Source of the DNA: Verrucomicrobia bacterium LW23
GTDB taxonomy: Bacteria; Verrucomicrobiota; Verrucomicrobiia; Methylacidiphilales; UBA1321
Assembly (NCBI GenBank): GCA_003054695.1
Contig: QAZA01000011.1
Location: forward strand, 372,001-436,000
Length of the DNA: 64,000 nt
Direction of reading: 5' to 3'
Of this stretch, positions 23,278 through 44,493 are shown piece by piece. The translations under genes were made by a program, and so were the position numbers. The notes beneath the pieces are model-generated. The model saw only the letters and a program-made list of their open reading frames with translations. It was not told where the DNA came from and did not search any database. How positions within the stretch are numbered: the first letter of the stretch is position 1; each line of letters begins with the position of its first letter.

Positions 23278-23289
23278 TTAACATGATCA
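23278..23289 (+). promoter_or_regulatory. Operator-like site TTAACATGATCA, copy 1
   Basis: Exact match to 26299-26310 and to the complement of 43501-43512. It lies in the 335-bp gap upstream of LacI regulator 1. Confidence 0.6.
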
Positions 23290-23437: not shown

Positions 23438-23794
23438 TCATTGCCAGCCGTATCGAACATATCTGCAGCGGTAACGACAAAGCAGGGTGCGCATCGCGGC
23501 GCAGGAGTATGGGCCGCCGCGGTCGCTGTGGAACATGAGCTGCGGCTGCGGGGAACCGTTGGCGATGGCGGTGCGGTGCCTGCGGCGTCGGGTGCCGGTG
23601 CCGGCCCTGGCGGGCGCGGCGGCGGGGTGGTTTCGGGGCAGGGAGCCGAGGGCTTGTTGCATGGCGTCGACAACGAGGTCGGCGCGCATGTGGTCGGCCA
23701 GGCTCCAGCCGACGACTTTGCGGGTGCACCGGTCGAGCACGACGGCGAGGTAGAGCTGGGTTAGCTCCTGGTCCAAAGTTTTAGCGCATCTCAC
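23438..23794 (-). pseudogene. IS3-family transposase (OrfB) fragment
   Basis: About 118 codons reading LYLAVVLDRCTRKVVGWSLA, MRADLVVDAMQQAL, then a disturbed Arg-rich stretch and LMFHSDRGGPYSCAAM. These are the rve-domain blocks of IS3 OrfB including the second Asp of the DDE triad (FHSDRG). The first Asp region and the C-terminal Glu region are missing, and no inverted ends were seen. It abuts the stop codon of the GH39-like gene (23796), so it may have altered that gene's 3' end. Confidence 0.72.
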
Positions 23795-26210: not shown

Positions 26211-26243
26211 CGTATGACCCAAAACTAGCAATGGCGTCTGTAC

Positions 26244-26255
26244 TTAACATGTTAA
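26244..26255 (+). promoter_or_regulatory. Perfect palindromic operator-like site TTAACATGTTAA
   Basis: A 12-bp perfect palindrome in the divergent region between the GH39-like gene (start 26210) and the GH63-like gene (start 26422). It shares the half-site TTAACATG with the other four sites. Confidence 0.65.
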
Positions 26256-28153: not shown

Positions 28154-29224
28154 TTAACCGTCAGCCTCCGCGCCGTCCCTTGCGAGAATGCCGGGGGCAG
28201 AATCTCCGTCATGCCAGTCGGACTGAATGTGCACGATTTTGGGCCAGGGCGTCGCGCCTCTCTCTCCGCGATTCATCTGTCCTACCACAATATCCACCGC
28301 GGCGGCGCCAACCTGTTGATTCGGCTGCAGGACGCCCGCTCCAACGTCGTGCGAGTCGATATCCAGCACCGCGTAACCTATGTCCGTGGGGATGCGGAGT
28401 TTGCATTGCTGAAGCCATTCGCGCGCGAAGTGGCAGGCGCTCAAGACAACGTCCACCCTGTTCTTCTTCACCCATAGGGCAAAGTTGGCAGGCATCTCCA
28501 TCGACTTTGCGCATGACGGTACTTCCGTGAGGAAGGCGGGAATCTCCGGCTGGGCGGTCTGCTCGTGGCTATCCAGGTAGTACGCCGCAAGATATTTGCC
28601 ATCGGTGGTGGTATTGATCAGCCGGGAAAGGATAAGGCCAATTCGCTGGTAGCCCAGGCTCCTGAGCCGCTGTAACGCCAGCCGCATGATCTGATAATGG
28701 TCCGCGCTTGCGTACGAAAGTTGCGGATGGATGGTATGGCGACCGACACTTCCGCAGGCGAAATTGTCCAGCGGCAAATCGCGAAAAGCTTCAAGGTTGT
28801 GGATATCGTGAAAGATGATGGCGCATGTGTTGTTGGCGCGGAGCGTCGTTCGCAAACGCACAATGTTCCCCTTATATTCCGGCCAGCTGCATTCGTTAAA
28901 GCCGAATCCGAGAAACTCGGAATGCGCCTTCACACCACTTAAAAAGCGGGCGGGATTCTGATGCTCCGCAAAGCCTGGAGGCAGGCCCGAAAGGAAGGTT
29001 ATCGACACCTTCCCACGCGACGATTGCCCGGCGCGTCGTCGACTCATGAGTAAACCTGTAACCGGGTCCCTGCGATAGCCCATTTTGGTGGCAATCGCCG
29101 CTATCCTGTCGCGTGTAAACTTGCTGACCGAGGGGAGATTGCGAAGCGCCATGCTTACCGTGGCAGGACTGCATTGTGCCGCGGCCGCTATATCCCGAAT
29201 GTTAGGATTGCTTTTGCCTGTCAA
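28154..29224 (-). CDS. LacI-family transcriptional regulator 2
   Basis: 356 residues. The helix-turn-helix reads NIRDIAAAAQCSPATVSMALRN, followed by TRDRIAAIATKMGYR and a sensor domain with LSGVKAHSEFLGFGFNECSW and CAIIFHDIHNLE. This subtype (short hinge, MGYRRDPVTGLLMSRRR) is common in Verrucomicrobiota glycan loci. It is the last gene of the putative operon GH2-like, cassette A, B, C, D, LacI, 62 bp after D. An ATAAC-ATC-GTTAT palindrome sits in that 62-bp gap, possibly for autoregulation or an internal promoter. Confidence 0.9.
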   Translation of the reverse strand: MTGKSNPNIRDIAAAAQCSPATVSMALRNLPSVSKFTRDRIAAIATKMGYRRDPVTGLLMSRRRAGQSSRGKVSITFLSGLPPGFAEHQNPARFLSGVKAHSEFLGFGFNECSWPEYKGNIVRLRTTLRANNTCAIIFHDIHNLEAFRDLPLDNFACGSVGRHTIHPQLSYASADHYQIMRLALQRLRSLGYQRIGLILSRLINTTTDGKYLAAYYLDSHEQTAQPEIPAFLTEVPSCAKSMEMPANFALWVKKNRVDVVLSACHFAREWLQQCKLRIPTDIGYAVLDIDSHDVGAGVLQPNQQVGAAAVDIVVGQMNRGERGATPWPKIVHIQSDWHDGDSAPGILARDGAEADG

Positions 29225-29251
29225 TGTATTTTCCGATGAACTAAGTAATGA

Positions 29252-29264
29252 ATAACATCGTTAT
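29252..29264. promoter_or_regulatory. Palindrome ATAAC-N3-GTTAT upstream of LacI regulator 2
   Basis: Perfect 5-bp arms with a 3-bp centre, 28 bp upstream of the LacI start. It resembles TTAACATGTTAA with one base added at the centre. Possible autoregulatory operator. Confidence 0.4.
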
Positions 29265-29286
29265 ATCCTACATGTTGCAGGACGCG

Positions 29287-29928
29287 CTATGGCCTATAAG
29301 TTATGCATCGTCCTGTGATGGGATCAACTTGAAGGGTTGCGAAATTTTTCGCGGGCCGATTGCCCGAAGGTGACGAGCCTGCAGGTATTACCGTGAGGGT
29401 CCATGCACCGGCTCCGCCGGGGCCGTTGGGGTCCAGCTCTGTGGAGCCATCGGGGCCGAATCGAACGGATTTGAACGGGCAGCTTGCGATATTGAAAACA
29501 GTAGCGTTGCCGCCATACGGGTTTTTTGTGCCCACAATGCTGGAGTACTTGTCGTCGCCAGTGATGTTAGCGCCTGCAGGCAGCCTGTGGAGCTTTCCCA
29601 GGGCCTCGCCGCTGTCCACACGGTAAAGCTGCACGGCGTTCCACTCGGATCCACCGCCGGATGCTGATGGCAGGGACCAAATGCGGAACTCGGTACGCAG
29701 ATTCTCGGCCACCGCCGTCTGGCGGGCCAGCTCCATTTGCCCGGCCAGGAGGTCGGAAGCCGCGGTCACATTGTGCCCCCTCATGATGCTCAAAGAAGGA
29801 GTGATGAGAGCAGCAAGGACGAGGATAACACCGATAACAACAATCAGCTCCACAAGGGAATAGCCGCTGTTCCGGGAGTTCCTTCGGACGCTTTTGCTTT
29901 TTGTCCCAGCGATAATGAGAGAATTCAT
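29287..29928 (-). CDS. Verru_Chthon cassette protein D (pilin-like)
   Basis: 213 residues. The N-terminus has a type IV prepilin cleavage/methylation motif, NSGYSLVELIVVIGVILVLAAL (here split as SGYSLVELI and VVIGVILVLAAL), with Glu at position +5 after the Gly. Such a leader is cut by a PilD-like peptidase and the helix packs into pilus-like fibres or pseudopili. The remainder is a beta-rich soluble domain with GDDKYSSIVGTKNPYGG and a C-terminal FATLQVDPITGRCITYRP. It follows C by 6 bp. Family function is unknown. Confidence 0.87.
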   Translation of the reverse strand: MNSLIIAGTKSKSVRRNSRNSGYSLVELIVVIGVILVLAALITPSLSIMRGHNVTAASDLLAGQMELARQTAVAENLRTEFRIWSLPSASGGGSEWNAVQLYRVDSGEALGKLHRLPAGANITGDDKYSSIVGTKNPYGGNATVFNIASCPFKSVRFGPDGSTELDPNGPGGAGAWTLTVIPAGSSPSGNRPAKNFATLQVDPITGRCITYRP

Positions 29929-29934
29929 AACGGC

Positions 29935-31044
29935 TCAATCAGCGCTAAATTTGGACTGGCGAATCTGAATACTTGTGGTAAAGACCCGAAAATTCAGACT
30001 CTCGGCCGTCAAAAAGTCGGTAAGTTTCTTCAGGTCATCGCTGAGGGGGGAGGACCCGCCGCCGCCGGGATCTGGCGCGGTTGCAAAGAGGGCGCCGGGC
30101 TGAAGGAGTGGGGCGGTGCCGGCGTACTTGGCTTCCAGCCGCATAGCTGAGGGCTCGTCTATGGCGACAAGCAGAACCTCGACAACCGGCGGCAACTGAT
30201 TGCGGCTTACCGCGTTGCCTCCGCTGAGATAGCTCTTGGTGTCATACGTGTAATTTGCAGTCAGGGGTGCTTTGCCATCGCTGTCCTCTTTCGCGCGCCT
30301 GGCCCAGAATACGGCGGCGACAATATTCTCCGCAACAGGCCGTGCCTGCGAGGGGGTGGCTTCCAGGGGTTTCGTAAACCATTCAAAGCGGTTGCCGGCG
30401 GTGAGCGCCTGGGAGTAGATCCTCAGCGTCTCGGTATTTTGAACCATTTGCATCAAACGGTAGCGATTTCGGGCCGGCGTGATGCCGTCCAGAAAGCCGG
30501 GGCGGAAGTCTGCATCACTGCCGTACTCAACAAAATAACCTACCGCATTCAGCAGGTTGCTGAGCTGGGCGTCTCCACTGCACGGCAACGAAGAGAAGCC
30601 GAGCATTGCCTGAAAGAAAATGGCGTGGCTGGGCCGGATTTTTCCCGCGGCGGCAGGAATAAGGGTGTTGGCCTGGCCGGTAACAAAGTGCAGCTCCGAC
30701 TGCCGCACATACTTATCCGGCACAAATACACCGCCGCTGTCCTCCACTTCCTTGCGGGATTTTCCGCTGCTGTCCACGTAGTCATAGTACGTGTTAAGCG
30801 TCGACTGGCTGACGCGCCGGGTCAGCGAGTCGAACGCCGCGCGGGATTCCTTGAATGCAGAGATTTTGCCGGATGTATTCCGAACGAGTTTGGTGGTCAT
30901 ATTCACCATGGAAAGAGTCACCGCCATCAGGATGGCGAGGATGCCCATGGAAACAAGCACTTCAGCAAGGGTAAATCCCTGCGCGTTTATGCAGCGTGCA
31001 CGTGCTGATTCAGCTTTCCGCGTCAATGTATGCTGTCTTTTCAT
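29935..31044 (-). CDS. Verru_Chthon cassette protein C (pilin-like)
   Basis: 369 residues. Prepilin motif AQGFTLAEVLVSMGILAILMA after a basic leader, with the conserved Glu in LAEV. The soluble part includes FKESRAAFDSLTRRVSQSTLNTYYDYVD, cut here into AAFDSLTRRVSQ and LNTYYDYVD, and LPPVVEVLLVAID. The length is typical of GspJ-like minor pseudopilins, which suggests a tip position, but that is inference. It starts 9 bp after B. Confidence 0.88.
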   Translation of the reverse strand: MKRQHTLTRKAESARARCINAQGFTLAEVLVSMGILAILMAVTLSMVNMTTKLVRNTSGKISAFKESRAAFDSLTRRVSQSTLNTYYDYVDSSGKSRKEVEDSGGVFVPDKYVRQSELHFVTGQANTLIPAAAGKIRPSHAIFFQAMLGFSSLPCSGDAQLSNLLNAVGYFVEYGSDADFRPGFLDGITPARNRYRLMQMVQNTETLRIYSQALTAGNRFEWFTKPLEATPSQARPVAENIVAAVFWARRAKEDSDGKAPLTANYTYDTKSYLSGGNAVSRNQLPPVVEVLLVAIDEPSAMRLEAKYAGTAPLLQPGALFATAPDPGGGGSSPLSDDLKKLTDFLTAESLNFRVFTTSIQIRQSKFSAD

Positions 31045-31053
31045 CGCAGCGCC

Positions 31054-31539
31054 TTAAAGTCGTACATCGGCTATGGCGTAGGTGTATTGAGCCAGCGGCT
31101 TGTCATCCGCGCCAAGGCTGTCCACCCTCTTGTTCCTGGCAATCCGAATCCGGATAAGTCGGGTACGGTCCAGCGATATACCTACGCCGGAGTAATTATC
31201 GACACTCACCGCGCTTTCAATCGGCACGATCTGTGCGGTGTATACAAAGTCCGGGCTCGAGCTGCTCAGTTCTTCTCCTTCCACATCGTAGTATCGCAAA
31301 ACATCGTAGAGTTGGGAGAGATCCTCAAACGGGGTCTGCTGTGCCTCGGCAAGCAGCTTTTGAGCGATCAGGATGGCCTGAGTCTTGTCCGTAGCATCTC
31401 GAAATGCCTGCAAGCCCACCGGCAACATGCCCAGCACGGCCGTAAACGCAAAGGCCATGATACCGAGGGCCAGTGTTACTTCCACAAGGCTGAAGCCTCG
31501 GCGCGAAGTTGCCTTGTTTCTTTGTGATAGAATGTTCAT
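31054..31539 (-). CDS. Verru_Chthon cassette protein B (pilin-like)
   Basis: 161 residues from MNILSQRN, chosen because the prepilin motif RRGFSLVEVTLALGIMAF then begins at residue 13; a longer frame to 31725 would overlap gene A. The body contains AILIAQKLLAEAQQTPF and LYDVLRYYDVEGEELS, the conserved core of this GspI-like family. Gaps are 31 bp from A and 9 bp to C, so the four genes form one operon. Confidence 0.88.
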   Translation of the reverse strand: MNILSQRNKATSRRGFSLVEVTLALGIMAFAFTAVLGMLPVGLQAFRDATDKTQAILIAQKLLAEAQQTPFEDLSQLYDVLRYYDVEGEELSSSSPDFVYTAQIVPIESAVSVDNYSGVGISLDRTRLIRIRIARNKRVDSLGADDKPLAQYTYAIADVRL

Positions 31540-31570
31540 GTGAGGATTTCTGTTAATCGCAAGCCGCCGG

Positions 31571-34500
31571 TTACTGGGAGATTTGCTTGCTGCTGATGAT
31601 GCGGAATTTGTACGGCCCAAGTACGGCAGAAGGGTCGGTATCGTCGCTGACGGGGGTGAAATTGCCTGAGCCGGTGTCCTTGACCAGCGAGTCGCTGTTG
31701 GGATCCAGATAGCGTTCGATAACAAACGAACCGCGGAACTCGCCGGCTACTCTGTCACGGGTGGAGTCGAATTTGCCCGCCTCCGCACTGGCCGGCGTCG
31801 TGGCAAGTTGCTGCACGCGAACGTGCACCGTGTAGGTATTGGACTTTGTTGTAAGGCGCGGATAGAGGTGCGCGTACGGCCGCTCGAGGGAGTTATCGCC
31901 CGTGAGCTTGTGCTCGCTCCAGAATGTGTTGAGCTTGCCTTCTAAGGTAGAAACATCGTCAGCACTTGTTGCAAATGTAGTTCCATTGTCGTTTCTGTCG
32001 GGAACCAGAGGAATGTCGCAAATCTCGCTTGCGGAGATGAACGGGCGCCGCTGGGAAGGGTTGCTGTTGTTGAAGCGATCCTCAAAGAATTTAAGTGTTG
32101 CCGCAGCATTGATACCAAAGCGGACAGATACCCCGGGCATGCCGGAATCCCCTTTGCTTGCGCTTCCATTGCCATTACCCATCTTGTAGCGATTTACCAG
32201 AAGGCGTGTTGGATCATCCACAGAAGGAAGGGAGGGATTGAGCGCTGTAATGACTGTGCCGGAGAATACGGCGCGCAGGCCCGTATCGCGGGTAATGTAG
32301 TTGAACGGGGCAATTTGGTAATTCATGTTGATTTTACCAGCTGTGGAGAAAGGCTCGCTGATGGCATACGGCTCCACAACGGGCATCCAGAACAAATCCA
32401 GCAAAAGGTGATCAGAAGGCCCCGTTGCGGAGGAGCCGGGATGATTGACACCACCGGGCAGGTAGGATCGCGCGGGACGGAAGAGCAGGGTTTGCCAGGG
32501 CCGAACGCGTTTTACCCCTGTTGGCAGCGATCCAAACATGACAGGCGAAGGCATCTGCCTGTTGGGCGAGAAAATCGTGGGAGAGATGGTAGCCACCTCC
32601 TGCGATGTGTAGCCGTGGCCCACATAAGGGATGGTGGAGGCCGAGGTCGTACCCTCGTCGGCTTTGTTGAGGTACGGGCCGTCCGATTGAATGCCGGGGC
32701 CGTTATCCCAGTCGCCTGGCTGCTTCAGGTAATTTTCCACGCCCACAATGTCCGGAGTCAGGTCCGGCATGATGCTCCACGACCAATCATGGGCGGGCGT
32801 GTCGTAATTCGTAATGCCGCTGACCAGCTTTCCCGACCCGGAGTGGCCGTTAATCGGGCCGGAGTAGTTAGGGCGCAAATTGTGGAACGTGCGAGCGCTG
32901 CCCTTGGTAGCCGTTGCCAGAGGATGCGCGCTGAAGAATTGACCGGGGTTATCTTTGGACGAAGCCGCGGCAATCAGGCGAAGATCACCCTGAATATTCC
33001 TGCCTGCCGCAAGGTTATTGGCGGGGACAAGGCTTACAACTGAATCCGTTGTAGACACGGCGGGTACACTGTTGTCGTTACCCTTCCATACGGCCTGATA
33101 ATAGTTGTAAGTCGATCCATACGATACACGAGTACCGAGACTGGTGGACGAAAAGGTGTAGGGAATCGGCAATACGATATCGCGATCAAACTCCATCTCA
33201 AATTTCTGAACGATCTCCGGTGCTCCCGTGTAAGGAGCCTCCATCCGGAAACGTATCTTGCTCCCCTTATTGATGGTGATATATCCAGCGGTTGCAGGGT
33301 CCGTGCCGTAGAGCCCTGGAACCTCAAAATCAGTACATATGGGCGGATAGATGGTGAAATTGCTGTTGGGATTGGCGGGGTTGGGTGCGTATATAAATGG
33401 CGCAATACCCATATAACCTCCAACGCGAGACTGGCCGAGATAATCGCCCTTTTTGACGATAGTGTCATGATACATAACAACTTCATCGTTAGGGAAAGGA
33501 AGCAGAGCGCCGTTTACCCTCAGTCCATCGCTTGCCTTTAAGCCGGTAAACGTAAGCTTCTGGTTCACCGCCATGGCGGAGAATCCAACCATAGGACAGA
33601 AGACTTCCGGGTAGAGCATCACGCGAATCTTGGTGGTCTTTTTCACCAGATCCCTTGCACCGGCCACAACAACCACGCCAACCTCCGATATCGTGGCGAT
33701 GCGTCCAAATCCTTTGGTGCCTGCACCCGCCCCGCTTTGGGGTTCGATGGGCAGCACCATACCGCGAAGCTTGTCGTCCGTGCCTGTGTAAGAGTTTGCT
33801 ACAGATACATCCTGCAGGTTAAGGCATCGGATGTAATCGAAGATTTCGGTAAGCACCTGATCGCGATCGATACCCAGCTTGCTTTTGAAGGTTCCACCAA
33901 AGCCGGGGATGGGCAGATCGGTAATACTTTGGAGGTAGCGATAGATCTCCTGATTGCGCGTGCTCCAGTCCGCCGTTTTGCTCAGCGGATTCTGGCGTGT
34001 GAAGTAATAGGGTTTTCTGGAGTTGCCCACGGTTCCACAAAAGGCAATCAGTCTGTCGTAGGCGGAGCGGTACTGGGGACTGTCGGTCACATGCACGGGC
34101 CAGGCCACAATGCGGGGCTTGTTGTGCAGGTTGACCTCCGGCGCTTTGCTGGTGGCGGTGGCGAAAAACTTCGCGCGCTCAATGATCTGGCGGCGGGCGG
34201 TATCCGAGACTTCAAACGGACTTGAAATCCGCGAATCGGCCGAAAGTGCAGGAGCAAACAGGAGCTCGTCGACCGAAGCGTAGAGGCGCTCGGCCCCTGG
34301 CTTCAGCGGCGGGCGGTTGTTGTCCAAGACAGATTGAGTGCCGGAGAGCGACGAATTGCTCCCACCATCGTAGCGCGGCGCAATGTTGTACAGGACCTCC
34401 AGAATCTGCGCGCGTGTGGGCGATCCACCCAGCTTCCTTGCAATCGCCTTTGACAAGATGGGCTCCAGGGAAGTTGTGGCGGGGTGTCCCGGGTAGCGCT

Positions 34501-35443
34501 GGTACTCGTTAAGCGCTGGTTGAAACTGGGCGTAATCCGCCTCAAAAATCTGGTTGGGCCAGCTCGCCGGCCGTGTTTTGAGGTTGGAGATAAGGAGGCT
34601 GGCTTTATTGGGATAGGTATTGCAAACCGGCGTATCCCATGGGGTGCCCGCCGCAGCGGTATTGATGTTGACTTTGCACGTCTCGTCATCCGTCCAAAAT
34701 GCAATGCGTGCGACGGCGGGGTTTGCCTTTGTCTGATTGGCAATTTCAACGCCTCCGCCCGATGCGCTGACGCCGGGCGATATCGTGCCGTCTTTGAGCA
34801 GGTAAAGCCACTTTACCGGCATGGCAAGCCTGGGGCTACCGCCTGCAGAGGCATCGTTACCCCAGGCCGGGTTGAACGAGAAGCCATCCACTTCACCCTG
34901 CGCGCGGGGATCGATAATCGGAAAAAGCCAGTGATCGGAGGGATCTCCCGCAGCGTCCAGCAGCGTGGTTTTGATGGGCGCGTTTATGTCCACATACTCG
35001 TCGGGCTTTGCTGTTATGTCGGATAGAGGAGGCAGATCGGTGCCGGCAGCCGGATCGAATGCTCCGTCCACCCGCATCTGGTCATTGGAGTAGAGCTTGT
35101 AGGCGGAGACGGGATTGCCTGATGTATCGAAGGTGCGTATGAGCCCCGGCTGAGAAGTCCAGGCCTCGCCGGGACGCTGTGTAGCCTCCTGCAATTGGCC
35201 GATGACTACATTAAGCGCCGTATCCGCCAGCAGACGCGTGGACGTGCTTTTCTCGTAGGTAGCCGATGAGGAGAGATCCGTCCGAACCCCCTGGAGAAAC
35301 GCGATGATGATAACGGAGACAAGAGCCAGCATCCCCAACACAAGGACGAGTGCTATGCCTCGCGTCTTGGAAGCGAAGCAGCGGTTAAAACGAGAGAGCC
35401 GTAAAGGGCGCGAAGCAGCTTGGGAAACAGTTGGATTGGACAT
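31571..35443 (-). CDS. Verru_Chthon cassette protein A, complete copy
   Basis: 1290 residues. A basic N-terminus and one helix (about 30-52, GIALVLVLGMLALVSVIIIAF) make a signal anchor or GspK-like helix; the rest is exported. RLLADTALNVVIGQL, WTSQPGLIRTFD and ARIAFWTDDETCKVNINTA match the partial copy at 1-1359. The protein is about four times the size of GspK but shares its place beside three pilin-like proteins, so it may be a large minor-pseudopilin relative. It follows the giant glycosidase gene by 58 bp. No catalytic motif was seen. Confidence 0.9.
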   Translation of the reverse strand: MSNPTVSQAASRPLRLSRFNRCFASKTRGIALVLVLGMLALVSVIIIAFLQGVRTDLSSSATYEKSTSTRLLADTALNVVIGQLQEATQRPGEAWTSQPGLIRTFDTSGNPVSAYKLYSNDQMRVDGAFDPAAGTDLPPLSDITAKPDEYVDINAPIKTTLLDAAGDPSDHWLFPIIDPRAQGEVDGFSFNPAWGNDASAGGSPRLAMPVKWLYLLKDGTISPGVSASGGGVEIANQTKANPAVARIAFWTDDETCKVNINTAAAGTPWDTPVCNTYPNKASLLISNLKTRPASWPNQIFEADYAQFQPALNEYQRYPGHPATTSLEPILSKAIARKLGGSPTRAQILEVLYNIAPRYDGGSNSSLSGTQSVLDNNRPPLKPGAERLYASVDELLFAPALSADSRISSPFEVSDTARRQIIERAKFFATATSKAPEVNLHNKPRIVAWPVHVTDSPQYRSAYDRLIAFCGTVGNSRKPYYFTRQNPLSKTADWSTRNQEIYRYLQSITDLPIPGFGGTFKSKLGIDRDQVLTEIFDYIRCLNLQDVSVANSYTGTDDKLRGMVLPIEPQSGAGAGTKGFGRIATISEVGVVVVAGARDLVKKTTKIRVMLYPEVFCPMVGFSAMAVNQKLTFTGLKASDGLRVNGALLPFPNDEVVMYHDTIVKKGDYLGQSRVGGYMGIAPFIYAPNPANPNSNFTIYPPICTDFEVPGLYGTDPATAGYITINKGSKIRFRMEAPYTGAPEIVQKFEMEFDRDIVLPIPYTFSSTSLGTRVSYGSTYNYYQAVWKGNDNSVPAVSTTDSVVSLVPANNLAAGRNIQGDLRLIAAASSKDNPGQFFSAHPLATATKGSARTFHNLRPNYSGPINGHSGSGKLVSGITNYDTPAHDWSWSIMPDLTPDIVGVENYLKQPGDWDNGPGIQSDGPYLNKADEGTTSASTIPYVGHGYTSQEVATISPTIFSPNRQMPSPVMFGSLPTGVKRVRPWQTLLFRPARSYLPGGVNHPGSSATGPSDHLLLDLFWMPVVEPYAISEPFSTAGKINMNYQIAPFNYITRDTGLRAVFSGTVITALNPSLPSVDDPTRLLVNRYKMGNGNGSASKGDSGMPGVSVRFGINAAATLKFFEDRFNNSNPSQRRPFISASEICDIPLVPDRNDNGTTFATSADDVSTLEGKLNTFWSEHKLTGDNSLERPYAHLYPRLTTKSNTYTVHVRVQQLATTPASAEAGKFDSTRDRVAGEFRGSFVIERYLDPNSDSLVKDTGSGNFTPVSDDTDPSAVLGPYKFRIISSKQISQ

Positions 35444-35501
35444 AACGTTGTGCCGGTTAATTGGAGTCAGGCAAACATGGGCTGTCGACAGGCGAAATCT
35501 G

Positions 35502-38500
35502 CTACGGAGGCGTCAGTTCCCACCACAGTGTTTCTTCCTTTTTGGGAGTCCAGGGCGCGCCGTTTTTGGGGGGTGCGAAGATGGAAACGAAGCGCGGGTA
35601 AAGATGATAGGAGAAAACCCATGTTGTGTAGCGACGATCGAAGGCGAAGATTGCCTCTCCGGAGGCTGTTTTGATGGCAAAGGGATTCTCATTCACCTTC
35701 ACCTTGGCCTCGGCGCCATTGATGAAGTTCAGGCCGGTTGTCAGTCTGGCAGTGTAGCCTTGCTTAAGGTCGGCCAATGGAGTGTAGCGCAGCTCGTAGC
35801 GCAACCGGCCCGGTGTGGCGATTATCGTCACTTTCCAGTCAATCTCCTCATTGCATGTAAATTCCCACACGCGTCTGTTTCCGCCGCCACCGGAGGTGCT
35901 CACGACGTTGCCTTGCGTCTGGCTGCCGAGAGTTTCTGTTACTTTTTCCCCTCCTTCTTCGCCCCTGGCAACGGCTTGCCATGGGGTGCTGCGGGCAAAT
36001 GCCTTTCCCTGCTGGTCGTATATGCTGGAGATGCTACCATCCCGCATCAGCACAAACCCGTAGTTGGGAAATTGCACTTGCTCCTGAACATCCCCTTCGT
36101 TGGTGCCTTCCGGCAAAACATCGCTTAGGCTGGGCATCGGCAGAGACTCGGCTTTTGCAGGATTTTCGTCCCGGGTTGCCGCGGTAATGGCGAAGACAAA
36201 TGCGTTGCCACTGCCAGCCAACCCGGGGCTGATGATATCAATGCTCTCGATCTCCTTCTCCGGATGGGGATTGTCCCATGTCATCTGAAAGACTCCGAGG
36301 TCTTTGTCGCCGGTGGGAGAACTCCCACGGGTGCGGGCATTACCGCCCAGCCAGGCTACCGTGGCACCTGGCAGAAACTTCTGACTGCGCTCCACACTGC
36401 CGCCATGAACCCACTCCGTAATGTTCTCGTTTGGCTTCACCACAACGTCGACAAACGGATCTGGCTTGCCCGGTATCCATACTTTGCGGTCCTCTGTGTA
36501 GTAGACGCGGTAAGTGAAGCCGGGCACCCCCCAGGCGGCGGAGTGCAGAAAGAAAAGCCGGTCTGCTTTCGCACGGACTTGTATGCCTTTTACTTCCGTA
36601 AGGCCACCCAGCTTGGCGCTTTTGCCGGCAATAAGGATCACCGAGTGGTTCTTCTGCGTTCCGGCGGGCGTAATGAAGTATTCCACGCCGCGCAGCGTTT
36701 GCTTGCCTGTGGAGAAGTCGCGCAGATCGTCGTCCGAACCGCTTGCATTCCACCCGCGCGGCTGGGTCGAATCATTCGTGTCTACCAGAGAGTGATTAAC
36801 GAACGGCGTCAGATCCAGCGTCATGAACTTCCAGGCAGTGGCTGCCTGCCCGGCCCCATCGGGGTCCAGTTTGGCGCCCGCATTGGTGAGCAGGGTGGAC
36901 AATACGCGCATCTGCGACGGCACGGGGGTCTCCAGCGATCGCACAAGATTAATGACGATGCGACCCTGGCCCACGGGGATCTCCGCAACATAGGCCGGTC
37001 TTGTCAGCGCCTGGACCCTGGGGCCGCTTACGACGGTATTCCCCGTATTTCCATTCTCGCCCTCCCTGGGCTTATGGATGTTAAAGCCGCGGCCCAGGCC
37101 GCTGAGCCAGAAATCCGCATGGCCCAGCCCCGAGGTAAGCGGCGATACCCGGGTAAGAAACGCATGGGTGTGAGGAAAAGCCCGCACCTCAACCGGAGAA
37201 CCGATAAGCTTGCTCAGCCATGCTGCGCCTGCATCGTCCAGCCCGTAGAGGAAGAGTGTTCCCCCTCGCTCCAGCCCGGAGAGCAGTCGGGGACGTATCG
37301 ACTCCAGAGCGGCCAGTGTCTCCTCTGACGTGCCGGAAGCGATGATGAGGTTGGCATCGGCGTTTGCCAGCACAGGCGCCACAACCCCCATTCGGTTCTG
37401 CAGGCCGGAGGTAAGTTTGGGATCGCCGGGGATGATGGCCGTTGTCTGGCCCTGGAACGGAGAAGGTGCGCCGGTCCACTTCAATATATTGCCCAGGATG
37501 CGTGTTGCCACGGGCTCGATACCCAGCGCATCCTTCATGTTCAGTTGAACGAAAAGCACGCGCCCGAGCCCCTGGCCCACTTCCAGCACCGGCGCCTTGC
37601 CCACGGTGGTTACATGAACGCGAAACATACCGCCTGATGGTACTTCCAGAGAATTCCACGCCGTTACCTGATCTTTTTCCTTCGTCGTCCACGCGCGGAG
37701 ATCCTCCGTTACGATTCCCTCGGTGAGGACAGAGGGGCCGTCGAGGCGTGCCACGTAACATGCGGCCTCCTTGCTCTGCACCAGCGGCCGGGGCAAAAAT
37801 TGGGGTAGTGAGAAGTGATCCAGCACGATGATCCGCCCGCCCGCTTCAATCTTGGGTACAAGCGAGGCAAGATCCTGAGGAGCAACACCAGCCAGCCCTT
37901 CGCTGCCAACAAGAAGCACGGTTTCCTGCTTCCAGTCGGATATCTTCTGCAAGTTCTGGAACGAAACGCGGGCCGCCTCCAGAGTGGGACTTACCGACTT
38001 TGCCGGATCAAAAACCGCAAGGACGGTGCTTGCCGGCAGCTGAAGGCGCGCAGGCGCAAGCACGGTAATGGCCACGTCATCCCGGAAACCGCCGGTGCCC
38101 GCCCTGGGCCACACACGCACTTCCATGCGGAGTTCCTTATCCGAAGCCACGGGCGGCAACGCGAAGTCGAGGTCCACAAACTGGATTTCACCGGGCTTCA
38201 TGTTGAGATCAACGGACTTCTCCCCGAGGACCGCCGTGCCATCCAGCAGCCGGTAAGTCGCCGTGACCGCCGCGCCCTCGCTCAGGTCATAATGAACGCC
38301 AAAGCGGGTCTGCATCCGGCTGCCCGAATTGAAACGGTACTTGCGATCCCATGAGAATGAGGCAAGCGGTAACAGGTAGCGTCCGGTGCCGCCGCTGACG
38401 TGAATCATAAAGGACGAAGAACCTGCCTGGCGAACATTCTGGATGCCGAGACGCCGGTTGCCCAGCATGTTGAGTGCCTCCCAGCAAGGTCGGGTCGCAT

Positions 38501-40943
38501 CGTCCTTCCTGCCCTCCTCCATGGGCAGATTCAGCAACGCATTGTGACCGAAGAGCGGGTAAGTATCTACCCCCTCCATGTACATTCCCTCCGCAAACAG
38601 CACGGGGCGGCCGTCAATGTGGCGAAGCTCCCTGGTGTTGCCGGGATAGAGCAGCAGAGGACCGCTGTTGGTTTTGAGATCCGCTACCCAGTTTGTCGCG
38701 GGCTCCGCACTGGGGCGGTGCTGGAAGTAGCCCGCATCCCGCAGGTATCTGGGCCGCTCTTCGGGCCTCCAGAAGTAATAGTCGGAGCGGTCCGCCCATC
38801 TGCCCCAGCCATGGTAATTCACCACTTCGGAGCCTGTTACGAGAGGGTAAGATCCTCCAATGGTAACCAGACGGGTAGGATCAAAGGTACGGATACGGCG
38901 GAATAACTCTCCCATTTTATAGGCCTCGCCAGGTCCCTTGAACGAGATCTCGTTGCCCGCATCCCACATAATGACCGAGGGGTGATTGATGTAAGCTTTT
39001 GCAACCGCGATCATTGTTGTCTCCAGACGCGACCACATCATCGGGTTTTGCCAATCATAATTATCGGCACCATGGGCATTGATTCCACCCGTATCCGCCT
39101 TAAGCAGATAGCCCAGCTCATCGGCAGCATCCATCGAGACAACGCCCTGAGACATCCCCGCTCCCGTGGGCCCCGCCTTGCGTGCACCGTGCCGGAGAAT
39201 GCGGTACGGGCTGGGACGGGCCGGCCACAGCAGGGCGGTGCTGTACTCGTGGCTGCCGCCGTGCAATTTCAGAATCTCCCCGTTGAGCGTAAAGTAGCTG
39301 CCCTTGATTCCAAATTCCCGAAATCCAAACCGGTCCCGGCGCGTATCGATGACCTTGCCCTCAGCGTCCAGCAGCTCCGTCCGTAACTCATAAAGCCTGG
39401 GGCGCTCCAGGGACCAGGTTTGCGCCTCGGGCCAGGCCTTCTGCATGGCGACGGATTGCGGCTGGCCTGGCTTGATGCTAATCGTCTTTTCGCCGATATC
39501 AAAAACCATCTTGCCGGCATCGTAAACGCGCATGCGCACTTTGAGATCCGACCGGGGCGTTTCGCTCTCAACGCTGGCTAGCACCTCCAGAACTTTGCCT
39601 CCCACGACTTTCGGGCGTATGACGATCGATGCAGAACGAGTCTGAGGTATGGACATGAGCTCGGGCACGCAGCTTACGCCAATGCGTACCGGATCCGTAG
39701 ATGAACTGGTATATATCCAGGCCCTGTTGGCACCCTGATAGGGGCCGGGAGGAGGAAGAGGAATCCCGGGACGTAGTCCCACAATATAGTCCGTAATACC
39801 CAGCTCCAGCGTGTGGCGGGAGCCCGGAGCCAGAGTCGATGGCAGCACAAAGCGCTTGGGGAGCTCCCAGTTGGCCGCCTCTCCGATGGTGGCGCCATCC
39901 AGCCGCACAACGGCGTGCGAATCAATGCCGTTGGGCAGCAGCAGCTCAATGGACTGACCGGCGGGCCAGTCGGAAGGCACCGTAAATGTCTGGCGCGCCC
40001 ACATGTAGTGGCTCGTCATGTCTTTGTCTTCCAGCCTGGTGGATCCAGGAATCCAGCCGCTGGTGGGGGGCGGATTCTTGTCGGGCGGGCCGGGGACGAA
40101 GGCTTTCTCCCAGTTATCGGTAAGGCGCACGGCATCAGGCCGCTCCCGGCTGATAAGGAATCTGTTCTCCGTGAGATGATACTCGTAGGTCTTGAGCGAG
40201 CCATTCTCCGCCCAGAGGCGCGTCTTGTATAGTCCCTTATCCGGAGTGTGCGCAGACAGATCGACGGACTGTCTCTCTCCCGCAGCCAGATTGAAAGACA
40301 TCGATTGATCGTTAAGCGGCACCCCAAAATAATCCTCCATTAGCACGCGCACCTCCAGTGCAAGAGGTATTGTGCCGGTGTTGACGATGCTGATCTGCTT
40401 CTGATCATGGCTCCGATCGAAGCGCACCAGCTCGTTGAGCGTAGCAGGGCGCAGCCGCAGCCGTCCGAAGCTGTTGGGATAGGCCAGCGGAATGTCCAAC
40501 GACTCTAACTTAAGCGTGCATGCTGGCTGTTCCGATGAAAGAGGTACGACAGCAGAGCCCTCCCCGCTGTGCCACAGGTTGCCAGTATCGCGGCTATTCC
40601 ACTTCAAATTGGATCCGTCGCACTCAAGCTTTGTAATGACCCGCGATTCATCCGCTTCCAGCACCACGGGCCACTGAGCGTCCGCATTGGCCGGCAAAGA
40701 AAGAGGAAGCGTCCAGTTGAACGCGCCGCCATGCACGCGACTGGAACGCGACTCCCGGCTTATAACGCTTCCGTAAGGCTCACCGGTCGCAAGCGTCAGC
40801 TTGTCGGTAACGTCAAGCTCCCAGGCGGGACGTGGACTCAGGCGATTATCGGCGGGGATATAGGCGGACGATGCGCTCTCCCCCGCCGCGGCCATAGACG
40901 TAAGGAAACACAACCCTAACAGGCAGTAAGACAATATTTTCAT
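35502..40943 (-). CDS. Giant secreted GH2-like glycosidase with accessory domains
   Basis: 1813 residues from MKILSYCLLG (signal peptide 1-21). A long N-terminal region (about 25-520) includes a GH2-type sugar-binding jelly roll (VVRLDGATIGEAANWELP). RFGFREFGIKGSYFTLNGE leads into a TIM barrel with acid/base Glu in MWDAGNEISF (E665) and likely nucleophile in VLFAEGMY (E785). Residues about 1000-1350 form a Rossmann/ThuA-like region (LLVGSEGLAG, FLYGLDDAGAAWL). A domain at about 1373-1590 recurs in the GH39-like enzyme. A further beta domain ends the protein. Length is far above the roughly 600-1100 of usual GH2. An alternative start at 41069 lacks a signal peptide. Confidence 0.85.
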   Translation of the reverse strand: MKILSYCLLGLCFLTSMAAAGESASSAYIPADNRLSPRPAWELDVTDKLTLATGEPYGSVISRESRSSRVHGGAFNWTLPLSLPANADAQWPVVLEADESRVITKLECDGSNLKWNSRDTGNLWHSGEGSAVVPLSSEQPACTLKLESLDIPLAYPNSFGRLRLRPATLNELVRFDRSHDQKQISIVNTGTIPLALEVRVLMEDYFGVPLNDQSMSFNLAAGERQSVDLSAHTPDKGLYKTRLWAENGSLKTYEYHLTENRFLISRERPDAVRLTDNWEKAFVPGPPDKNPPPTSGWIPGSTRLEDKDMTSHYMWARQTFTVPSDWPAGQSIELLLPNGIDSHAVVRLDGATIGEAANWELPKRFVLPSTLAPGSRHTLELGITDYIVGLRPGIPLPPPGPYQGANRAWIYTSSSTDPVRIGVSCVPELMSIPQTRSASIVIRPKVVGGKVLEVLASVESETPRSDLKVRMRVYDAGKMVFDIGEKTISIKPGQPQSVAMQKAWPEAQTWSLERPRLYELRTELLDAEGKVIDTRRDRFGFREFGIKGSYFTLNGEILKLHGGSHEYSTALLWPARPSPYRILRHGARKAGPTGAGMSQGVVSMDAADELGYLLKADTGGINAHGADNYDWQNPMMWSRLETTMIAVAKAYINHPSVIMWDAGNEISFKGPGEAYKMGELFRRIRTFDPTRLVTIGGSYPLVTGSEVVNYHGWGRWADRSDYYFWRPEERPRYLRDAGYFQHRPSAEPATNWVADLKTNSGPLLLYPGNTRELRHIDGRPVLFAEGMYMEGVDTYPLFGHNALLNLPMEEGRKDDATRPCWEALNMLGNRRLGIQNVRQAGSSSFMIHVSGGTGRYLLPLASFSWDRKYRFNSGSRMQTRFGVHYDLSEGAAVTATYRLLDGTAVLGEKSVDLNMKPGEIQFVDLDFALPPVASDKELRMEVRVWPRAGTGGFRDDVAITVLAPARLQLPASTVLAVFDPAKSVSPTLEAARVSFQNLQKISDWKQETVLLVGSEGLAGVAPQDLASLVPKIEAGGRIIVLDHFSLPQFLPRPLVQSKEAACYVARLDGPSVLTEGIVTEDLRAWTTKEKDQVTAWNSLEVPSGGMFRVHVTTVGKAPVLEVGQGLGRVLFVQLNMKDALGIEPVATRILGNILKWTGAPSPFQGQTTAIIPGDPKLTSGLQNRMGVVAPVLANADANLIIASGTSEETLAALESIRPRLLSGLERGGTLFLYGLDDAGAAWLSKLIGSPVEVRAFPHTHAFLTRVSPLTSGLGHADFWLSGLGRGFNIHKPREGENGNTGNTVVSGPRVQALTRPAYVAEIPVGQGRIVINLVRSLETPVPSQMRVLSTLLTNAGAKLDPDGAGQAATAWKFMTLDLTPFVNHSLVDTNDSTQPRGWNASGSDDDLRDFSTGKQTLRGVEYFITPAGTQKNHSVILIAGKSAKLGGLTEVKGIQVRAKADRLFFLHSAAWGVPGFTYRVYYTEDRKVWIPGKPDPFVDVVVKPNENITEWVHGGSVERSQKFLPGATVAWLGGNARTRGSSPTGDKDLGVFQMTWDNPHPEKEIESIDIISPGLAGSGNAFVFAITAATRDENPAKAESLPMPSLSDVLPEGTNEGDVQEQVQFPNYGFVLMRDGSISSIYDQQGKAFARSTPWQAVARGEEGGEKVTETLGSQTQGNVVSTSGGGGNRRVWEFTCNEEIDWKVTIIATPGRLRYELRYTPLADLKQGYTARLTTGLNFINGAEAKVKVNENPFAIKTASGEAIFAFDRRYTTWVFSYHLYPRFVSIFAPPKNGAPWTPKKEETLWWELTPP

Positions 40944-41131
40944 GAATATAAAAAGGGAAGTCTGTCCAGGCAACCTTTCGGGATTTCGGGATCTCGGAGG
41001 AGCGTAGACTTCAACGCGGTCTTGAACTCGTTTCTTCTTAACGCTGGAAGCCAAACAAGGACTCACCAACGTGGTCGCTGTCTAAGTGGAAATGTAGTCA
41101 ATCCCAACGTTTGGCGCAAAAGGCGACTTAT

Positions 41132-41143
41132 TGATCTTGTTAA
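41132..41143 (-). promoter_or_regulatory. Variant operator-like site TGATCTTGTTAA
   Basis: One mismatch to TGATCATGTTAA. It is 189 bp upstream of the giant glycosidase start, and the only such site ahead of the putative glycosidase-cassette operon. Confidence 0.45.
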
Positions 41144-41169
41144 GTAAAGCAACCCCTACACAAAAAATG

Positions 41170-41200
41170 CAGGGCCGCCGCATTAACCGCGGCGGCCCTG
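41170..41200 (-). terminator. Rho-independent terminator of the GH31 gene
   Basis: Stem CAGGGCCGCCGC (41170-41181) with GCGGCGGCCCTG (41189-41200), loop of 7. On the minus strand it is followed by GCATTTTTTGTG, a T-rich run, 12 bp beyond the GH31 stop. It separates GH31 transcription from the giant glycosidase operon downstream. Confidence 0.88.
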
Positions 41201-41211
41201 CCCTGAGTCCA

Positions 41212-43452
41212 CTACTGCTCCTTCGGCTGGTAAAGACCTTGCATAAGCACCTCGCCGGCAATAATATACCGCTGGCTGTGCGCCTCGCCATGACGCTGCA
41301 CCTTCAGCCCGTCTTTCGCGCTCCAGGTGAGGTCAATGGTGGAGAAATCTCCTTTTTTGAAGTCGAATGTTTTGCCGTCATCGCTGTAAAGTCGGCCTTT
41401 GGCTTCGATCGCGCCATCCCCATACACCGTGGGGCGAATCGTGAAAATAGTCTCACTCGTCAGCCTGCTCTCTACATCCGCCAGGGGCAATACTGCCCCG
41501 TCCCGAACGTAGAGGGGAATATGATCCAGTGGAGGATTGTTGAGTACAAGCGTACGGCCACCTTCGTGCGGGACCCCTGTGGCAAACTCCCGCCACTTGC
41601 CGATCGGAAGATAGATACTGTGGGAGGATTTGCCTGCTGCGACAGGAGCCGCCAGCAGATCGCGACCGATCATGAATTGCTGATCGCACTTCCACGTCTC
41701 CCGGTCCTCGGGGAAGTCCAGCGGCAGACCGCGAAACGGAGGGAGACCTGTCTGCGCGTACTCGGCAAACGCGTTGTAGATGTAGGGGAGCAAGCGCATG
41801 CGCAGATGCAGCGCCTGTCTCACCAGCGCTGTTGCCAGGTCGCGGTCGTCCATCATTTCGCCGTTTATGTTCTTCTTGCGATTGATCTGCATCCACGGCG
41901 GCATGGGGATGTACCAGCCGTCAATCATGGAGAGTGACGAGAGCACGACAGCCTGCACTCGCCGTATAAACTCGTTGACCGTCGCCGCGTCCCGTACCTC
42001 TGGCGTCCAGAGCATGCCGCAGTAGCCTGCATTCACAACACCGCGCAGAAAGTCTTCATGTTCATACAAGTCGCTGTACAACGCGAAAGGAAGCGATGAA
42101 GCAAGCGGCCCGGAGGAGCGGACCAGCCCGTAATGGCGCTGATTACGAGCGACAAAAATATCGTCCAGAGTGTGCTGGTAGTGCACTCCGTAGAGCGTAT
42201 GCATCTGCTCGCCGTCCGCGCCGCTGGGAAACTGAGTGTGCTCGGGAAAGGACCAGGCAAAGGGGAGGAAATCGCCATTGTCGCACTCATCCAGCTTAAA
42301 GCCATCTGCCCCGTGCTCCACCAGGGCTGTACGGTGGTGCTCGGCAAAGATGTGGCAGGCTTCTGTGGTGAGAAAATCGGGCGCAAGACCATCTGTGGAC
42401 AGCTCGTCCCCACACCACGGGGCAATCGTCTTGGCAAAGGGAGCTTCGGGATGCACAAAGGCGTTCTCCCATAGGTTTAGCCGGTAGCCGCGCGCCTTGA
42501 GGTCACGGGCAAATGTGGCGGGATCTGGGAATTTATCGCTCCAGGTAAAAGAGTTAGGGTAGAATTTAGACTGCCACGCTGGTTCAAGTCCAATTACACT
42601 GAAAGGCAGAACGTCCGCGGCAAACCCATCGAGAAGCTTGTGTACTTCCTCCTCGTTGTGATGGGAAAACGCCCTGTACCAATTGCCCAGCTCCGCAAGC
42701 GGAGGAAGGCAGCCGCCGCCGGAGAAGAGCACATAGCGCTGCAGCGCAGTACGCATTGTGGGCCCGCCAAAGAAGTACAGTGTGATGCCCCGGGCCGCCG
42801 GAATGTCGATGATATTCCGGTGGCCAAAAGCCTGTTGTTTATAGATCTCCGCCGGAGACAAAGGCGCAGATGACCATTTCTGCGCCACGCGTTGCTCGAT
42901 CTCGCTGACCTTGGCATGAGTGCCCACGTTGAAGGAGCAATAGCGCGCCGTATCCGCCAGCACAGCGTATCCATGGGTGGAAACAAAAAACGGCGCCGGC
43001 GCATGCGAATCTCCCGTATCTACAACCGGATCCGCGTTAACGCGGAGATGTCGCTTTTTACCCGAGTGCAAGTGCCCCTTAAGCTGAAGTCCAAAGCCAA
43101 AGATGCCCTCGTCCGGGTTGAACGGCAACTCGCAGGTTACGCCTCTCGCATGAACGCGAAAGCGTATGTCTTCTATCCGAAATGGGGGCTGCGCAGGGGG
43201 GGCACCGAGCCTCGCGTACTCCGCTTCACACGGCGTGGTGCGTCGCACAGAGACTGGGGTAATGTCTTCGGGCACTCCCAGCGTAAGACGCCACACACCG
43301 TGCCCGCAAAGCTCGATTTTACCTCCCCCTGCCTCATGGCCTTTCAGTGTGTCTGGCGTCAGGTTTTCCCCGCCTTGACGGGCTGACGTACCGTTTCTCG
43401 AATCAGTGCGGAAAGTATCGACCTTCAGAAGGGTCGCAGGAAAATTGGTCAT
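41212..43452 (-). CDS. GH31 family glycosidase
   Basis: 746 residues, no signal peptide; a cytoplasmic alpha-glucosidase, alpha-xylosidase or sulfoquinovosidase-type enzyme is possible. N-terminal beta-sandwich with FGFGLQLKG, then the barrel: LGNWYRAFSHHNEEEV, LPFSVIGLEPAWQ, and nucleophile Asp in GADGFKLDECDN (D388). RSSGPLASSLPF and the proximal C-terminal domain follow (FMIGRDLLAAPV, PLYVRDGAVLPL). The usual WxxDMN nucleophile motif is replaced by KLDECDN, as in some GH31 subfamilies. An exact TGATCATGTTAA lies 49 bp upstream. Confidence 0.88.
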   Translation of the reverse strand: MTNFPATLLKVDTFRTDSRNGTSARQGGENLTPDTLKGHEAGGGKIELCGHGVWRLTLGVPEDITPVSVRRTTPCEAEYARLGAPPAQPPFRIEDIRFRVHARGVTCELPFNPDEGIFGFGLQLKGHLHSGKKRHLRVNADPVVDTGDSHAPAPFFVSTHGYAVLADTARYCSFNVGTHAKVSEIEQRVAQKWSSAPLSPAEIYKQQAFGHRNIIDIPAARGITLYFFGGPTMRTALQRYVLFSGGGCLPPLAELGNWYRAFSHHNEEEVHKLLDGFAADVLPFSVIGLEPAWQSKFYPNSFTWSDKFPDPATFARDLKARGYRLNLWENAFVHPEAPFAKTIAPWCGDELSTDGLAPDFLTTEACHIFAEHHRTALVEHGADGFKLDECDNGDFLPFAWSFPEHTQFPSGADGEQMHTLYGVHYQHTLDDIFVARNQRHYGLVRSSGPLASSLPFALYSDLYEHEDFLRGVVNAGYCGMLWTPEVRDAATVNEFIRRVQAVVLSSLSMIDGWYIPMPPWMQINRKKNINGEMMDDRDLATALVRQALHLRMRLLPYIYNAFAEYAQTGLPPFRGLPLDFPEDRETWKCDQQFMIGRDLLAAPVAAGKSSHSIYLPIGKWREFATGVPHEGGRTLVLNNPPLDHIPLYVRDGAVLPLADVESRLTSETIFTIRPTVYGDGAIEAKGRLYSDDGKTFDFKKGDFSTIDLTWSAKDGLKVQRHGEAHSQRYIIAGEVLMQGLYQPKEQ

Positions 43453-43495
43453 CCTATCTTAGTCGCTCCTTACCTATGTCCGCCGCAACCTTCGC

Positions 43496-44319
43496 TTAAG
43501 TGATCATGTTAAGTGGATGGACTGCGAACGATGCGCCAACGGCGACGGCCTTATCCTTCGCCTGCGCATCGTACTTCCACCAGGAGCTCGCACAGTGACT
43601 CTTAACATCTTCCGAAATGGCGCCATCGAAAGCTTCCCGTTTCTCCAGGTCCAGCCGGAACGACGATGTGCTGTCCTCCTCACGCAGCCCCCAGGCGTCG
43701 GCCAGCCCTCCGCCAGGAACCACAGTGCTGTGGCGGCCTGTCGTCCCATTGTATGCGCCCAGGTGGGCCTCACTCCACAATATTCCGCCGGCGTCCACCC
43801 ATGCGCGCAGTGTATCCATCTCCCGCTGAGTAAGATAGTACGGTGACGGGAGAATCAGTAGACGGATTCCATCAAGAAGCCCCGCTTCCAGTTGAATGTC
43901 ATCCACGACGCGGTATGGAATATTCAAAGCATATAGCGCCTCAATATAAGCGTTTACACTTTCCCTGAGCGAGTTCAGGTTGAGCTGGATGGCGAAGGGG
44001 AATATCTCGTTGCGTCGGCTTTTCCAGATAGCAACCTCACTGGTCGGCGGCGGACACGCTGCCAATGAGTTGGCGTGCGGAGCAAGCTTCTGCCAGAATT
44101 GCTCAATAGCCCTCGTGACCGCGCGATCCGAACCATCTGTCCTGACAACGCCCCAGCCAGGCGCCTCAAATCCCAGCACCTCCGCGCGGAATTGCCAAAA
44201 CTGAAAGCCGCGCACTCCAGCGCCAATCTGCGGCAGGAACTCGCCTAGGAGTTTGCGCAAATCGACCCGTCCGGGATGCATGTGAGGCAGCACGTTCTGG
44301 AAATCTCTCAAAGAACTCG
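43496..44319 (-). pseudogene. GH42 beta-galactosidase fragment, truncated at both ends
   Basis: About 275 codons of GH42 sequence: HPGRVDLRKLL, GVRGFQFWQFRAEVLGFEAPGW (shown in part; the fingerprint is FWQFRAEVLG), then the trimerisation domain LYALNIPYRVVDDIQ, LLILPSPYYLTQREMD and GGILWSEAHLGAYNG. The barrel's first part with the acid/base Glu is absent and the C-terminus stops short in HPLNMIT at the GH31 promoter. The open frame to 44413 begins with unrelated residues, probably from the element remnant next to it. It likely represents a gene cut by insertion and deletion. Confidence 0.75.
43501..43512 (-). promoter_or_regulatory. Operator-like site TGATCATGTTAA, copy 3
   Basis: Exact inverse complement of the sites at 23278 and 26299, 49 bp upstream of the GH31 start. 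It sits on the last codons of the decayed GH42 frame. Confidence 0.65.
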
Positions 44320-44380
44320 AAGCCGCCAGTCGCGACGCAGGCCGACGCGTCGTAGTCATTTCCGACAACTTACCGCAGCT

Positions 44381-44493
44381 CAACCCAACATTTCGCCACC
44401 CTCGATGCCGCACTTGCCGCTATCGAACCCCAACTCGACGCCTGGGCCAAACCCACCGAAACTCTCCGCAAACTATGCGCCTTCTTTGGCTGA
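44381..44493 (+). pseudogene. Possible transposase C-terminal remnant
   Basis: A short frame ending in TGA at 44493 reads QHFATLDAALAAIEPQLDAW then AKPTETLRKLCAFFG, a pattern I associate with the tail of IS630-like transposases. It abuts the 5' break of the GH42 fragment. Too short for certainty. Confidence 0.3.

Follow-up and report, generated by a model that had tools for sequence, protein, structure and literature searches.

A Verru_Chthon minor-pseudopilin cassette within a glycosidase locus of Verrucomicrobia bacterium LW23: a candidate LacI-controlled tip set for a shared filament machine

The locus lies in a stretch of 64,000 nucleotides from Verrucomicrobia bacterium LW23 (hereafter the window), in which glycosidase genes, two LacI-family regulator genes and the four genes of a Verru_Chthon cassette are arranged as follows:

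21999..23102, minus strand: LacI1, a canonical LacI regulator with sugar-binding domain (Pfam PF00356, PF13377)
23796..26231, minus strand: secreted GH5/GH39-like glycosidase (Pfam scan)
26422..28143, plus strand: MGH1/GH63-like glycoside hydrolase (PF22422, 7.6e-38)
28154..29224, minus strand: LacI2 regulator, closing the GH2-cassette run (Pfam scan; homologue in genome G012)
29287..29928, minus strand: cassette gene D, GspH-type minor pseudopilin (TIGR02596, 89 bits, over cut-off)
29935..31044, minus strand: cassette gene C, GspJ-type minor pseudopilin (TIGR02599, 306 bits, over cut-off)
31054..31539, minus strand: cassette gene B, GspI-type minor pseudopilin, ATG at 31539 (TIGR02598, 60 bits, over cut-off)
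31571..35443, minus strand: cassette gene A, giant GspK-type minor pseudopilin of 1290 aa (TIGR02600, 907 bits, over cut-off)
35502..41069, minus strand: large GH2-like glycosidase, opening the run (PF00703, PF02836)
41169..41201, minus strand: terminator-like hairpin at the boundary between GH31 and the GH2 run (14 pairs and a T run)
41212..43452, minus strand: GH31 alpha-xylosidase/alpha-glucosidase-like enzyme (PF01055, 2.9e-26; PRK10658)

An earlier reading of the letters and reading frames (the sequence-only reading) had described a single-strand run of GH2, cassette genes A-B-C-D and LacI, which the open reading frames bear out, all being on the minus strand, and the intergenic gaps that it gave (58, 31, 9, 6 and 62 bp) were exact on re-measurement. 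The GH2 protein likely starts at the ATG at 40943, which a signal peptide follows, rather than at the TTG at 41069. In the promoter and terminator scan, hairpin totals were near shuffle level, and the hairpin at 41169..41201 was the best single one. The Pfam scan also placed a weak GH43-like gene among the glycosidase genes, and no SusCD pair was seen in the locus. Signal peptides were found on both the GH2 and the GH5/39 enzymes and none was seen on the MGH1/GH63-like hydrolase. The GH2 and GH5/39 enzymes also have in common a C-terminal module of about 200 aa (28%, E=1e-15), without a Pfam match, which is present in both GH2 homologues of G012 as well. This module was considered as an export tag, an idea dropped upon its absence beside other cassettes in the loci scanned.

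GC content falls to 0.53-0.60 between 20 and 46 kb, whereas most of the flanking DNA is at 0.59-0.67. The remnant of an IS3-type transposase lies between LacI1 and GH5/39 (23447-23791, minus strand; rve region LYLAVVLDRCTRKVVGWSLADHMRADLVVDAMQQAL), and a truncated GH42-like ORF of 305 codons (43496-44413, minus strand) directly precedes GH31. Because of the GC drop, the insertion-sequence remnant and the truncated ORF, window positions 20000-46000, and with them the whole glycosidase locus, probably represent an acquired island.

The prepilin motifs claimed for B, C and D were present (GFSLVE, GFTLAE and GYSLVE, respectively), and the GspK-like place proposed for A agrees with a GspK match at 8e-7, GspK being the best of five T2SS pseudopilins. 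When the cassette proteins were compared by hhalign with the five T2SS pseudopilins of the same genome (G-H-I-J-K, each a single-sequence template), the best matches were one-to-one: A with GspK (E=5e-6, the others at 0.009 or above), B with GspI (5e-7), C with GspJ (1.6e-6) and D with GspH (9e-10), matches that rest mainly on the N-terminal 20-80 residues. More widely, 15 of 17 A proteins matched GspK and no family besides GspK and their own, and 15 of 44 C proteins matched GspJ, the N-terminal part of C also matching competence pilins. Judged by homology, then, the cassette is an additional minor-pilin/pseudopilin tip set of the H, I, J and K types with a giant K. A is well conserved towards both ends and most variable at residues ~580-930. 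A confident structural model of A residues 80-1279 (pLDDT 83, pTM 0.90) gave no significant Foldseek match, a result that leaves a GspK fold of A hypothetical without being evidence against it; VIA-align 2 reached a Z of at most 4.5 (rmsd 4.6, 138 aligned), confined to a beta-sandwich. At E 0.01 the Pfam scan returned nothing in A, neither a carbohydrate-binding family nor PilY1, and PilY1 was also missing among the scanned locus neighbours. Profile searches of the PDB gave nothing of note for A and B, and pilin N-termini only for C and D; an AlphaFold model of C from its single sequence (pLDDT 37) was unusable.

No major pilin or GspG, ATPase GspE, platform GspF or secretin GspD was found among the cassette genes or locus neighbours. 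Having just its four minor pseudopilins and none of the components just named, the cassette would have to use a shared machine. The sequence-only reading had proposed a dedicated pseudopilus or secretion device for large extracellular glycosidases; the association of cassette, glycosidases, LacI and shared operators holds up, but "dedicated" does not suit a cassette without machine genes of its own. The same genome has one T2SS operon elsewhere (G000:C17, GspD-E-F-G-H-I-J-K, with G-H-I-J-K taken from reading frames), as well as PilB/PilT genes. PilT was present in all 17 genomes with A over cut-off, although it occurs in cassette-less genomes too, and GspG above 80 bits was found in 13 of the 17 genomes with a full-length cassette versus 1 of 13 others. 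Three cassette-bearing genomes (G018, 95% complete, G007 and G020), all with PilT, had no GspG above 25 bits and no full-length GspD in their incomplete assemblies; because these three are without a detectable T2SS, an obligatory T2SS is unlikely. The evidence favours T4P as the cassette's machine, with T2SS as the main rival.

Candidate operators at the locus were found at five positions:

23278..23289, plus strand: copy 1, TTAACATGATCA, upstream of LacI1
26244..26255, no strand assigned: copy 2, perfect palindrome TTAACATGTTAA
26299..26310, plus strand: copy 3, TTAACATGATCA, in the divergent GH5/39 / MGH1 promoter region
41132..41143, minus strand: copy 4, TTAACAAGATCA, one mismatch, in the promoter region of the GH2-cassette-LacI2 run
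43501..43512, minus strand: copy 5, TTAACATGATCA, 50 bp before GH31

All three exact copies of the 12-bp word that had been reported (23278, 26299 and 43501) were thus recovered, as were both related sites, 41132 differing from the word by one mismatch and the palindrome at 26244 by two. The view that three exact copies are unlikely by chance was upheld, the whole genome of 6,614,109 bases containing TTAACATGATCA at these three positions only. When up to one mismatch was allowed, 17 sites were found genome-wide, of which this 20 kb holds 4 (binomial P=2e-7). Every exact copy precedes glycosidase or LacI genes: copy 1 is 176 bp upstream of LacI1, and copy 5 falls inside the last codons of the truncated GH42-like ORF. 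Copy 4 is ~190 bp upstream of the revised GH2 start. A LacI regulator, GH genes and a repeated palindrome-like candidate operator at promoters, by which a LacI-controlled carbohydrate locus would be recognised, therefore occur here together, and these sites would presumably be bound by LacI. No TTAACATGATCA-type site stands directly before A or LacI2, and control of the cassette would therefore run through the GH2 promoter. Cotranscription of the cassette with GH2 is suggested by the short intergenic gaps.

Among 62 genomes of the order, only one other, G012, had a GH2 homologue at the threshold used. It belongs to a different family of the order, and its locus groups GH2, GH31, a second GH2, a LacI2 homologue and a D-B-C-A cassette, with 45% for GH2, 57% for GH31 and 30% for LacI2 (5e-48) relative to the window. 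The window word is absent from this GH2 locus. Comparison of promoters gave instead a 16-bp word, AATTAACG[C/T]GTTTAGT, common to the GH2/GH31 and LacI/cassette promoters; at no more than one mismatch it has 4 sites in the whole G012 genome, 3 of which are within this 22 kb, the third preceding a GH1-like gene (named by its N-terminal sequence only). The expectation that shared sites should be present at the orthologous locus is borne out in this form, G012 having a word of its own that has diverged from that of the window. The candidate operator words are TTAACATGATCA and TTAACATGTTAA at the window locus and TTAACGCGTTTAG with the G012 LacI, and the core of the G012 word, TTAAC-NN-GTT, is also the core of the window palindrome.

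The LW23 genome holds ~17 strong and ~15 weak A loci (the positions of the weak loci being approximate), and the cassette order elsewhere in it is mostly B-C-A-D. LacI genes cluster near these loci: 16 of 45 were within 10 kb of an A locus, against 5.1 expected (P=2e-5), and in the complete genome G013 the count was 9 of 13, against 1.05 expected (P=8e-8). Clustering was significant in four of five genomes (LW23, G013, G001 and G020) and below significance in G002. The nearest neighbours of LacI-bearing cassettes (35 cassettes, 70 neighbours) were mostly GH130, CBM9, GH5, acetyl xylan esterase (AXE1), GH2, GH42, alginate lyase and sugar transporters, and cassette neighbours in LW23 include GH5, GH16, GH39, GH42, GH95, a polysaccharide lyase and a polysaccharide deacetylase. 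Neighbours of LacI-less cassettes were generic, with many cassettes beside housekeeping genes, and the random-gene control was also generic, with one fucosidase among the 25 families listed. Of 97 non-redundant cassette loci, 62 had no LacI in the tested range, some of them consisting of A alone. The CAZyme enrichment is partly explained by the fact that LacI genes accompany CAZymes anyway; a tally of CAZymes was accordingly rejected as proof, on its own, of a link between cassettes and glycosidases, shared operators being the stronger test.

In that test (at most one mismatch), a palindrome-like 14-mer was shared between the cassette promoter and another promoter of its locus for 11 of 33 LacI-bearing cassettes, a count that is not fully independent, a few of the 33 being related (L112, L118); the corresponding values were 1.2% for single-base shuffles and 5 of 47 for LacI-less cassettes. 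Examples are GTTATCGYGATAAC before LacI, the cassette and a GH2 (L114); TTATCATATGATAA before cassette/LacI and a gene for beta-agarase with CBM9 (L101); ATCCGAATTTGATT-like words at six places, including before the cassette and before LacI/carbohydrate esterase (L090); and CGTGAACGTTCACG before the cassette and LacI/GH39-like genes (L034). The candidate operator sequences vary from locus to locus, as they should if every LacI recognises a site of its own. A survey for cassettes beside glycosidase genes in other Verrucomicrobiota genomes, suggested by the sequence-only reading, thus found recurrence with unrelated operator sequences.

The four cassette families (TIGR02596, TIGR02598, TIGR02599 and TIGR02600) are multi-copy in Verrucomicrobiota, a cultured relative with cassettes being Chthoniobacter flavus Ellin428, and all four window proteins score over cut-off side by side; no mention of "Verru_Chthon" was found in the literature searched. 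What is added here is the predicted LacI regulation, the CAZyme partners and the H-I-J-K assignment, by which each protein, so far named by bioinformatics only, gains a T2SS/T4P counterpart and a testable regulatory logic. In T2SS, four minor pseudopilins make up a tip complex topped by GspK (PMC6211770). The cassette resembles GspH-I-J-K in its one-to-one best matches and in the lack of Glu5 in A, as in GspK, but differs in an A that is ~4x larger, in having no GspG, E, F or D and in its many copies per genome. Three minor-pilin/PilY1 clusters of Myxococcus xanthus serve one T4P machine, and different tip properties have been proposed for them (PMC7541494); the likeness is that one filament machine is served by several sets of four minor pilins, whereas the cassette has no PilY1 family match and occurs in tens of sets, with links to LacI and CAZymes. 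The Akkermansiaceae MUL2 glycan-attachment pilus locus similarly devotes pilin-like genes to polysaccharide use in the same phylum, but has PilM and the archaeal-type pilin Amuc_1102, and no LacI is described there (PMC13174399). Verruconatronum has 67 PulG-like paralogues, one pseudopilin being over-expressed on alginate (PMC13274419). The window locus shares with LacI-repressed polysaccharide utilisation loci a local regulator, palindromic candidate operators and GH genes, and differs from them in having pilin tip genes and no SusCD. The cassettes stand apart from these precedents in their giant K, their many copies and their putative LacI operators.

Based on these results, we propose, with a probability of roughly 60%, that the Verru_Chthon cassette is an extra tip set on a shared T4P/T2SS machine, wired by LacI to the enzymes for one polysaccharide. 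A LacI-family repressor would hold the cassette and those enzymes in one circuit; once a sugar signal relieves repression at operators of the TTAAC type, the cell would make both the glycosidases and a new tip complex. The four minor pilins would serve to prime a type IV filament and to cap it, with the giant GspK-like A at the very end, assembling on the shared T4P and/or T2SS apparatus with a shared major pilin. The genome would thus encode many interchangeable tips, each adapted to a substrate. That the four proteins assemble as a tip, and what that tip does, are both conjectured from sequence. The broadest form of the proposal, in which each Verrucomicrobiota genome has tens of sugar-programmed exchangeable tips, each with its own LacI, operator and enzymes for one polysaccharide and all fitting a common T4P/T2SS, is tentative, and we would place it somewhat below even odds.

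As to what such a tip would do, capture and pulling-in of polysaccharide is our slight favourite over export of the coregulated enzymes. In the capture reading, which taken by itself is possible though well short of probable, the cassette primes T4P, A binds polysaccharide and retraction carries the polysaccharide to enzymes at the surface or to the periplasm. The conserved ends of A around a variable middle, the constant company of PilT, the glycan attachment served by the Akkermansiaceae type IV-like pilus locus and the alginate response in Verruconatronum are all consistent with it, but A has neither a detected carbohydrate-binding family nor a significant fold match, and PilT is not restricted to cassette-bearing genomes. 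In the export reading, the cassette replaces the housekeeping T2SS H-I-J-K tip, and the large coregulated GH2 and GH5/39 enzymes are recognised and pushed out through GspD. The one-to-one homology to T2SS minor pseudopilins, the T2SS operon in the same genome, the signal peptides and common C-terminal module of the two enzymes and the co-occurrence with GspG argue for export; we nevertheless consider it possible but less likely than not, given the three cassette-bearing genomes without GspG or full-length GspD, the 1290 aa of A, a size well beyond that of ordinary GspK, the lack of an evident exported enzyme beside several LacI-bearing cassettes and a common module that was not found near other surveyed cassettes.

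Two further explanations would dissolve the link between cassette and enzymes altogether. The cassette might be an abundant, spreading paralogue that merely landed in a glycosidase operon, its regulation being incidental, as the number of A loci in the genome, the low-GC island with its IS and GH remnants and the many cassettes adjoining housekeeping genes could suggest. The independent recurrence beside homologous GH2/GH31 genes in G012 with an operator at the promoter, the shared operators at several further loci and the clustering of LacI in four genomes make such hitch-hiking improbable. Alternatively, the 12-mer could be a repeat element or the site of an unrelated factor rather than a LacI operator, and three of its copies do have unequal half-sites; yet all copies precede genes, one is a perfect palindrome, and the G012 word, beside a LacI2 homologue, has the same TTAAC-NN-GTT core, so that we regard this explanation, too, as improbable.

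Verrucomicrobiota are major polysaccharide degraders. The proposal that the cassette is a LacI-wired tip set on a shared machine offers a concrete mechanism by which these bacteria could fit their surface filaments to substrates, and would account for the large numbers of pseudopilin paralogues in the phylum. If it is true, the food polysaccharide would decide what the filaments of a cell grip (or export).

Some minor observations concern cassettes and A genes elsewhere. A second giant A gene lies at the edge of the window (1-1275, L038) without B, C or D nearby, with further orphan A genes at L033, L045 and L046. Giant proteins of 1505-1581 aa, 41% identical to each other, are each encoded beside a Verru_Chthon cassette (L036:2459-7204 and L041:15481-19998), the one at L036 carrying a TPS secretion domain. 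Homologous proteins are found near three cassettes (L035:2280-5288, L044:4706-6829 and L047:1824-4643), with BNR/sortilin-like repeats in both copies scanned, those at L035 and L044. Gene order also differs among lineages: L123, L126, L130, L134, L137, L139, L147, L151 and L156, mostly from Verrucomicrobiales, are mainly A-B-C-D without LacI and other lineages are mainly B-C-A-D or B-C-D-A with LacI, whereas the window combines A-B-C-D with LacI.
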